A DNA stretch of 64,000 nucleotides from Synechococcus sp. A18-25c (GTDB lineage Bacteria > Cyanobacteriota > Cyanobacteriia > PCC-6307 > Cyanobiaceae). Location of the stretch: positions 868,001 through 932,000 of the forward strand of contig NZ_CP047957.1 of assembly GCF_014280035.1 (NCBI RefSeq), in the 5' to 3' direction. The notes beneath the pieces are model-generated. The model saw only the letters and a list, made by a program, of their open reading frames with translations. It ran no database searches and was not told where the DNA came from. Every line of letters starts with the position of its first letter. Position 1 is the stretch's first letter. Positions 28,182 through 30,506 of this stretch are shown here, piece by piece. The position numbers and the translations under genes are program-made.

Positions 28182-28217
28182 CATGAACAAGGTGGGGGAG
28201 CCCCCGCCTTGTTCATG
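28182..28217. terminator. Long hairpin, probable bidirectional terminator
   Basis: CATGAACAAGG (28182-28192) pairs with CCTTGTTCATG, and an inner GGGGG pairs with CCCCC, giving a stem of about 17 bp with one T-G step and a two-base loop. It lies between convergent ppa and the TerB/Coq4-like gene and includes the stop codon of the latter. No long T run follows on either side, so termination efficiency is uncertain. Confidence 0.65.
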
Positions 28218-29193
28218 GTTTGAGCAAGACAGGCCCGGGTGTCTGGGGGATGTGGAACTGCTCCCTGAGTTGAGTGACTTGTTGCTCAGCGTGCCTCCAG
28301 AAATCGAAGTCTTGAATCAGATTCACGTTGCAGGCCAATCCTTTTTCGTAGCCAGCCATGGCGTCGTCGGGGATGAACTGCCCTGTTTCCGGCGGTATCA
28401 GACTGTTGGTGGTGCTGAAGGATTTTCCAAGATGGAAATCGAGCATCACTTCAAGCAGTGATTCAAAGCCGAATCCATCGGTAAAAAGTCCGGCTTGAAA
28501 GGCTGCCACATTCATTTCCCCTTGCGTGTCGGTGTTGAAGCCACCCAGGATGTGGCAACAGTCATGATTCACTAGCAATTCCGAGGTGCTCTTGTGCTCG
28601 CCGGGCAGCGCCCAGTTGCGGTCGCGATACCAGTGGAAAAAGCTGTGGCCAAGGCTTCCTTCTGGAAACTCTTGCAGGGCTTGGTAACGACTGGCGAGGA
28701 TTGGATCCCCGACGGCTTGGTGGATTGCGCTGATGATGCCGCGTACAAATTTTGAGGGACTGTCGAGGCGTAAGAATTCACTCATGCTCCGGCGGCCGTA
28801 ATCGAGCAGCAGGCGCCTGAGGTGGTTGTCGCGAACCTGGTGGAGGTCCTGCAGCGTCTGGGGTGTCACCTCAAGACATTCGGCAAAGTCGTCCACCACG
28901 CCCACCATGCGCGCATCCACTGTCATGTCGACGTAAGGAATCAGCACCAGCATTTGGATGAGTTGTTCTCGCTGCGCTGGATCAACAATCAGATCCGGAT
29001 ATTGGATGGGGGGAATGATTGCCAGGTTGTCCAGATCAATGTCTGAATGCAGAACATGCGTCTGAATCGCGTGCATCATCTCCAGGATGATCGGCTGCAG
29101 TTTCAGCACGCCACCAGCGGTGCCTACGTTTTTGATGGCCTGAAGCACAAGTTTGGCTTCGGCAGTCGTCCACGTCAGTTGCTGCGGCATCAC
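28213..29193 (-). CDS. Hypothetical protein with TerB-like and Coq4-like parts
   Basis: 326 residues. Residues about 10-125 are helical, with LVLIPYVDMTVDARMVGVVD resembling the TerB tellurite-resistance fold. The second half contains HDCCHILGGFNTDTQGEMNV, matching the HDxxHxLxG...E metal-binding motif of Coq4 and related four-helix proteins. I do not know this combination as a named family. A soluble di-metal or lipid-interacting protein is an inference from the His/Asp/Glu motif. No TerC/TerD genes are near. Confidence 0.65.
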   Translation of the reverse strand: MMPQQLTWTTAEAKLVLQAIKNVGTAGGVLKLQPIILEMMHAIQTHVLHSDIDLDNLAIIPPIQYPDLIVDPAQREQLIQMLVLIPYVDMTVDARMVGVVDDFAECLEVTPQTLQDLHQVRDNHLRRLLLDYGRRSMSEFLRLDSPSKFVRGIISAIHQAVGDPILASRYQALQEFPEGSLGHSFFHWYRDRNWALPGEHKSTSELLVNHDCCHILGGFNTDTQGEMNVAAFQAGLFTDGFGFESLLEVMLDFHLGKSFSTTNSLIPPETGQFIPDDAMAGYEKGLACNVNLIQDFDFWRHAEQQVTQLREQFHIPQTPGPVLLKP

Positions 29194-29337: not shown

Positions 29338-29880
29338 ATGTTGCGTCTCGATTGCGTCGGATGGCGTCATTTGGCTGGCGTTGGTGTTGTCTCGGCGGTG
29401 CTGGCAGGTTCGGCTGCTTCGGTTGCTTCCGTGCAGGGGGCAACGGTGCCGAGCGCATCGGTGCCATGGCAGGCCGCAGCCCCCGCGACGCGGATTCATC
29501 TCGATCTGCGGGAACGCCGCATCAGCGTGATTCGAGATGGCCAACCATTGGGTCGCTGGCCTGTGGCCATCGGCGACCCCAGCACACCCACGCCGACAGG
29601 ATTGTTTCAGGTGGAATCGAAGCTGGAGAATCCTCAATATCAGAGCACCACGTCAGGCAAGGTGCATCCAGTCACCGGCCCTTCCAGCCCTCTAGGACAT
29701 CGATGGATTGGGTTTCTTCAGCAGGGCCCTAATCAGTTCGGCATTCATGGAACACCCTGGCCCCACTGGGTCAAGATTCGTGCTGCTGTCTCCAACGGAT
29801 GCGTGCGGATGCTCAATGCCGATGTGCAAAAGCTGTATGAGCTCGTTGAAGTGGGTACTCCCGTGGTCATCACCCAATGA
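29338..29880 (+). CDS. L,D-transpeptidase (YkuD domain)
   Basis: About 180 residues from ATG 29338, or 192 from GTG 29302. A signal peptide (VGVVSAVLAGSAASVASVQG) precedes one YkuD domain: IHLDLRERRISVIRDGQPLG, PTPTGLFQVESK, and the active site GIHGTPWPHWV followed by SNGCVRMLNADV with catalytic Cys. It makes 3-3 peptidoglycan cross-links or attaches proteins in the periplasm. The 3' end overlaps the marC remnant by 11 bases. A short inverted repeat (TGGTC/GACCA) lies just upstream of the GTG. Confidence 0.9.
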   Translation: MLRLDCVGWRHLAGVGVVSAVLAGSAASVASVQGATVPSASVPWQAAAPATRIHLDLRERRISVIRDGQPLGRWPVAIGDPSTPTPTGLFQVESKLENPQYQSTTSGKVHPVTGPSSPLGHRWIGFLQQGPNQFGIHGTPWPHWVKIRAAVSNGCVRMLNADVQKLYELVEVGTPVVITQ

Positions 29881-30506
29881 GTCCAGAGTCCTTGAGGATG
29901 GGAAAGCCGACGTTTAGGCCTGTGAACAGCATCTGAATCGCGATTGCCGTGAACAACAGTCCCATGATTTTGGTCAGCACTTGCAAGGCTGAGGCGCTGA
30001 TTTTTGAGGACAGCATTTCGCCAGCATTGTTAACCAGATAAACGACGGCGCTGAGAGCGACCACCACCAGACTGGGGCTGACTTTGCCTTCAAGGCTTGC
30101 GGCGTGAGGATCAGCGATCACCACCGTGAGGGTGCCTGGCCCGGCGAGAAGGGGAATGCCCAAAGGCACGATGCCTTTGACGGCAGAATTTTGATCTCGG
30201 TCTACTGACTCGGGATCGTGGTGGACTTTCGATGGCTCGGAGTGCAGCATCGAAAGCCCGATCAACACCACAATCAACCCTCCTGCGACCTGAAAGACAG
30301 CACGGCTAATGCCGAAGAACCCCAAGAGGTCATTCCCAAGCCAGGTTGCTAACAGCAGTGCACTTAGAAAGGTAAAAGCGCCGCTGCGGGCAATCCTCGA
30401 TCTTTTTTTTGTTCCCGTCGGTGAAGGAGAGATAGATCGGAAGGTTGCCGATCGGGTTGGAGATGGTGAAAATTCCGACCGCGGTGTGCAGCAGAGACCT
30501 GCTCAG
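29870..30506 (-). pseudogene. MarC-family membrane protein, frameshifted
   Basis: Two frames encode one MarC protein. The 5' part reads TAVGIFTISNPIGNLPIYLS and FTDGNKKK; the 3' part reads RIARSGAFTFLSALLLATWL, then GFFGISRAVFQVAGG to the end. The switch is at a run of eight A (minus strand; plus 30403-30410). Seven A, or ten, would restore one frame. There is also no ATG, GTG or TTG in frame upstream of the conserved start, so initiation is unclear. Sequencing error, recent inactivation or transcript slippage are all possible. Confidence 0.8.

Follow-up and report, generated by a model that had tools for sequence, protein, structure and literature searches.

A predicted fusion of TerB-like and Coq4-like domains in one protein of Synechococcus sp. 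A18-25c

Only recently was a chemistry assigned to Coq4, a human disease protein. Cyanobacteria make plastoquinone and not ubiquinone, yet they often have several Coq4-like genes, so it is worth asking what Coq4 folds do there. Human COQ4 was reported as an oxidative decarboxylase that acts at ring carbon C1 and turns the carboxyl into a hydroxyl in one oxidative step (PMC11495197). For the cyanobacterial homologue Alr8543 (PDB entry 6E12), two Mg ions were reported at the Coq4 motif, with H120, D121, H124, and E136 as the Mg ligands (PMC9774615). An article on marine Synechococcus mentions a singleton prochlorosin cluster that contains a Coq4 gene (PMC10783134).

Here, we analyzed a gene that joins a Coq4-like domain to a TerB-like domain. 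It lies within a stretch of 64,000 nucleotides of Synechococcus sp. A18-25c, which we call the window, and presents these features:

28213..29190, minus strand: gene of the fused TerB-Coq4 protein, 325 aa, with ATG at 29190, stop codon at 28213-28215, and an alternative GTG start at 29193.
28765..29181, minus strand: TerB-like N-terminal domain (predicted), residues 5-143 from the model match to 2H5N; the hhalign match to TerB covers about residues 13-117.
28216..28698, minus strand: Coq4-like C-terminal domain (predicted), about residues 166-326, from profile matches; the model match to Coq4 structures is weak.
28516..28566, minus strand: HDxxH-x11-E motif, H210 to E226, invariant in 33/33 fused relatives.

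The ORF check of the window confirmed that the ORF at 28213-29193 (minus strand) is intact and real. Translation probably starts at the ATG at 29190, one codon after the GTG, and we preferred this codon because the similarity of four relatives in the contig scan begins at residue 2; residue numbers are nevertheless counted from the GTG at 29193. Six ortholog comparisons showed purifying selection on both halves of the gene, with pN/pS of 0.09-0.24 for the C half and 0.17-0.38 for the N half.

The C half is a predicted divergent Coq4-type domain. In Pfam, the window protein alone matched Coq4 with an E of 0.00097 and 18.9 bits, under the cut-off of 22.9. When the 21 alignment members were scanned (window included), 20 matched Coq4 at E 0.1 or better; one relative (L029) matched no Pfam family. 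The profile of this 21-member family found two Coq4 structures in the PDB, 3MSQ (E 7.8e-10) and 6E12 (E 3.8e-8). By profile-profile comparison, the C half reached a probability of 98.9 and a score of 115 against 18 stand-alone Coq4 sequences, and a score of 14.8 against the TerB set. The Coq4 set was 18 of 20 loci, two of the 18 rows being identical; L034 (wrong reading frame) and L050 (a fused protein) were left out, and the 20 did not include L037.

The motif is the most constant part of the family. H210, D211, H214, and E226 were invariant in 33/33 fused proteins by alignment count, and the Coq4 pattern HDxxH-x10-13-E was present in all of them. R134 and P197 were also invariant in the 33 rows, as counted within the fused set. 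This set excludes duplicate records (L007, L008, L012, and L017), broken copies (L019, L020, L021, L039, and L044), single-domain proteins, and the fused loci first found in a profile search of 386 genomes.

The N half is a predicted TerB-like helical domain, and here single-sequence matches were weaker: the window protein matched TerB in Pfam with an E of 0.2 and 12.4 bits, under the cut-off of 24.4, which none of the 21 members scanned reached (best E 0.0013, 19.5 bits). Thus, the fused protein passes neither the Coq4 nor the TerB Pfam cut-off. In profile-profile comparison (hhalign), the N half matched 19 cyanobacterial TerB sequences with a probability of 93.3 and a score of 44.8; the controls reached at most 18.3 in 30 column-shuffled comparisons and 14.2 against the Coq4 set. 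These 19 sequences were taken from 20 fetched loci (L097 left out), out of many more matches. The N half of the family profile also found proteins of mostly 210-270 aa across cyanobacteria, and at least four of these places (in G040, G046, G017, and G028) overlap TerB matches.

Structure models were obtained with AlphaFold from the window protein and four relatives 64-80% identical to it. Residues 5-143 of the model aligned to 2H5N (PG1108), which we take to be TerB-like, with a Z of 9.4 at 3.2 A, 115 of the 124 residues being aligned, and the second entry had a Z of 4.7; helical bundles may reach a Z of up to about 13 without kinship. Such Z scores alone may mislead, so the TerB-like assignment relies on the agreement of profile and structural tests. 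Foldseek on the whole model ranked 2H5N third (E 2.2, probability 0.69), and none of its hits had an E of 0.001 or better. A TerB profile of six sequences matched 2OU3 and 2JXU, named tellurite-resistance and TerB proteins, and 2H5N was absent among its PDB matches.

For the C half, the models were poor. The whole-protein model had a mean pLDDT of 52.6, with 25-59 in ten-residue blocks for residues 171 to 300, around the motif, and the C half modeled alone had a mean pLDDT of 45.5. Among 140 aligned chains, the only PDB entries with a Z of 2 or more for this poor C-half model were two Coq4 homologues, 6E12 (Z 3.1, 83 residues, 5.6 A) and 3MSQ (Z 2.1, 88 residues, 6.5 A). This match weakly supports a predicted Coq4 fold, and not the metal site.

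The initial annotation, made from the letters and their translations, had proposed TerB-like and Coq4-like parts joined in one protein, and the profile-profile comparison of both halves bears this out. For its TerB-like N half, the hhalign score lies well above the shuffled maximum and 2H5N is the best structural match; for its Coq4-like C half with HD..H...E, the family profile finds 3MSQ and 6E12 and the motif residues do not vary. The pairing of domains in the ORF at 28213-29193 exceeds chance. Its further suggestion of a di-metal helical protein was only partly supported: the C half has the Coq4 metal motif and a solved relative (6E12) for which two Mg are reported, but the TerB half lacks the TerB acidic positions. 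These four positions (two D-x6-E pairs) were kept in 19/19 TerB rows, and 0/33 fused rows had at least three of them acidic, the window protein keeping D89 only; their placing on the fused proteins is that of the hhalign alignment. Since 21/33 fused rows have a D-x6-D/E pattern somewhere in the N half, the loss of the TerB acidic positions rests on this alignment. With these acidic positions gone from the TerB half, we expect only the Coq4 half to bind metal.

A tree of 51 C domains had one branch (100/99) that separated the 33 fused from the 18 stand-alone sequences; the tree is unrooted and has long branches, with the fused Coq4 domains far from the stand-alone ones. This split would fit a single old fusion that later gave rise to several paralogue groups. 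Profile matches across both halves were found in at least 18 of 386 sampled cyanobacterial genomes (one of them partial), and 16 of these genomes belong to the same family as the window; no more than five candidates were scored per genome, so these counts are a floor. The genome of Synechococcus sp. A18-25c has five Coq4-like genes, two fused copies and three stand-alone ones, and the contig scan showed that Synechococcus WH7803 also carries the fused gene. Relatives were found neither in viral contigs, searched with the window protein's alignment, nor in phages, searched with the window protein, nor in plasmids, searched with the window protein, L028, or L040. Non-cyanobacterial bacteria were covered by the single-protein contig scan, which picks up close relatives.

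Two side observations concern other Coq4-like genes of the same genome. Immediately upstream of a stand-alone Coq4 gene (L054 7642-8967) is a small ORF whose product by eye resembles an antibiotic-biosynthesis-monooxygenase-type protein. Near the second fused copy (L053 13727-14998), there are two small ORFs that by eye resemble Nif11-type leader peptides.

At the genomic level, the fused gene has ppa on one side, in convergent orientation, and an L,D-transpeptidase gene on the other, in divergent orientation and with hemC farther out. In all 17 same-genus genomes where the gene is intact or broken (loci L001-L021), it is flanked by these three genes, and a MarC-like gene is at the locus in only some of them. 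A 62%-identical copy in another genus (L030) had none of the three as neighbors within the stretch examined. Pfam named nine of the ten neighboring ORFs, all housekeeping, transport, or cell-wall genes, and the tenth matched no family. No tellurite, ter, or quinone gene was among these ten ORFs, in agreement with what the initial annotation had stated for the surroundings. No common partner around the fused paralogues was seen by eye.

The MarC-like gene beside hemC (29870-30497 of the window, minus strand) is split over two frames, with the frame change near 30402-30418, and relatives such as L066, L001, and L003 align to it over 210 residues in a single frame. It is either a pseudogene or a sequencing error. 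Separately, in two close relatives, G007 and G011 (L056 8052-9727 and L024), a fused gene from another group directly abuts, or shares a few bases with, a phosphoribosylanthranilate isomerase (PRAI) family gene; the PRAI match of the L056 copy has an E of 2e-25. This suggests an operon, an arrangement observed in these two relatives only.

The ortholog has been lost in a number of relatives, and its presence is patchy. Among 31 same-genus genomes (the window's own included), 14 had an intact ortholog, three a broken one in the same place (G012, G019, and G023), one a remnant, and 13 none, three of these 13 being only 63-80% complete. The 13 intact relatives were 64-90% identical to the window protein. 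The remnant, of about 29 residues, lies between the L,D-transpeptidase and ppa genes of G024 (L066 10340-10426), and that genome has a different fused paralogue elsewhere. At least 11 of the 17 genomes without an intact ortholog still carry another fused paralogue, so redundancy is possible. In the others, G001 and G023 (99% complete) had no matches but stand-alone Coq4, apart from the broken copy in G023; G027 had a partial match, and G003, G014, and G022 are incomplete genomes. An intact ortholog (14 genomes) and another fused group (five genomes) never occurred together among the 31, with a chance of 0.036 that is confounded by genome relatedness. For at least 17 genomes of the same family that are 99-100% complete, scoring of every candidate gave no match to the protein family at E 1e-8.

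The fused protein could be a true COQ4 equivalent, a ring-decarboxylating or hydroxylating enzyme of cyanobacterial plastoquinone synthesis, as its Coq4 motif in a quinone-rich host and the three stand-alone Coq4 genes elsewhere in the genome would allow. We consider this highly improbable. The state of the ortholog in 17/31 genomes, where it is missing, broken, or reduced to a remnant, argues against it, although this is not decisive alone given the fused paralogues that at least 11 of the 17 retain. So do the 99-100% complete genomes of the same family that lack any match at E 1e-8, since oxygenic photosynthesis requires plastoquinone. The presence of UbiD in the genome makes a role as core plastoquinone enzyme unlikely, and a 4-hydroxy-3-solanesylbenzoate decarboxylase is reportedly required in Synechocystis (Pfaff 2014); an essential plastoquinone role is likewise unlikely, because the ortholog or the whole family is missing from many genomes and UbiD is present in its own. 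A TerB-like role in the response to metal or oxidative stress would follow from the TerB-like N half, and we find it improbable: no fused row keeps three of the four acidic positions common to all TerB rows, even if D-x6-D/E occurs elsewhere in 21/33, and none of the ten neighboring ORFs is a Ter gene.

A non-catalytic role deserves more weight, though we still think it rather unlikely. Here, the protein would be a carrier of lipid or prenyl-lipid and a complex organizer: the Coq4 fold would hold a hydrophobic ligand, the metal would be structural, and the TerB half would be an interaction module. Two articles fit this, one describing oleic acid together with Mg in the Alr8543 crystal (PMC9774615) and the other recording a proposal that Coq4 organizes the CoQ complex (PMC11495197). 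However, none of the four metal-motif residues varies in this divergent family, and that second article now reports human COQ4 as an enzyme (PMC11495197).

We tentatively prefer a catalytic reading, which falls a little short of being probable: the fused protein may be an accessory metal-dependent enzyme that handles an aromatic compound of prenyl- or lipid-like nature, the TerB half serving for docking. In its favor are the profile matches to Coq4 structures, the invariant motif with the Alr8543 spacing, the 2H5N match of the N half, the single-branch split, purifying selection, and the patchy presence; the surroundings, which offer no pathway context, speak against it. The Coq4 half would bind one or two divalent metals via H210, D211, H214, and E226 beside a hydrophobic pocket, and, as part of an accessory pathway, would act on (or hold) an aromatic compound that is prenylated or lipidic. 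The reaction could perhaps be a COQ4-like oxidative decarboxylation; since the fused Coq4 domains are far from the stand-alone ones, the activity may differ. The TerB fold would remain as a scaffold after losing its acidic positions and, as a guess, would dock the Coq4 half to a partner or to the membrane. Substrate, metal, and partner are all inferred here. In its broader form, which we regard as doubtful, these proteins would be an undescribed clade of fused TerB-Coq4 enzymes tailoring accessory prenyl- or aromatic lipids in picocyanobacteria, with TerB turned from metal binding into a scaffold. If true, this would place Coq4 chemistry outside ubiquinone synthesis.

Compared with known systems, the fused protein is a variant combining the known Coq4 and TerB kinds, and no description of the fusion was found in the titles and abstract starts searched (Coq4 in cyanobacteria or Synechococcus, TerB with Coq4, and TerB architectures). 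One apparent co-mention of TerB and Coq4 was discarded, as "terb" there stood for terbinafine. With the TerB superfamily (PF05099; 2JXU and 2OU3, with 2H5N as structural match), the N half shares a profile match and the helical fold, whereas the fused proteins do not keep the two D-x6-E acidic pairs in place, and none of the 21 members scanned reaches the TerB cut-off in single-sequence Pfam. With the Coq4 family (PF05019) and its Nostoc members Alr8543 (6E12) and Npun02000094 (3MSQ), the fused protein shares the HDxxH-x11-E spacing and the preceding LG motif, and H120/D121/H124/E136 of Alr8543 are spaced as H210/D211/H214/E226 of the window protein. It differs from this family in falling singly below the Pfam cut-off, in its additional N-terminal domain, and in its place on the other side of the tree.
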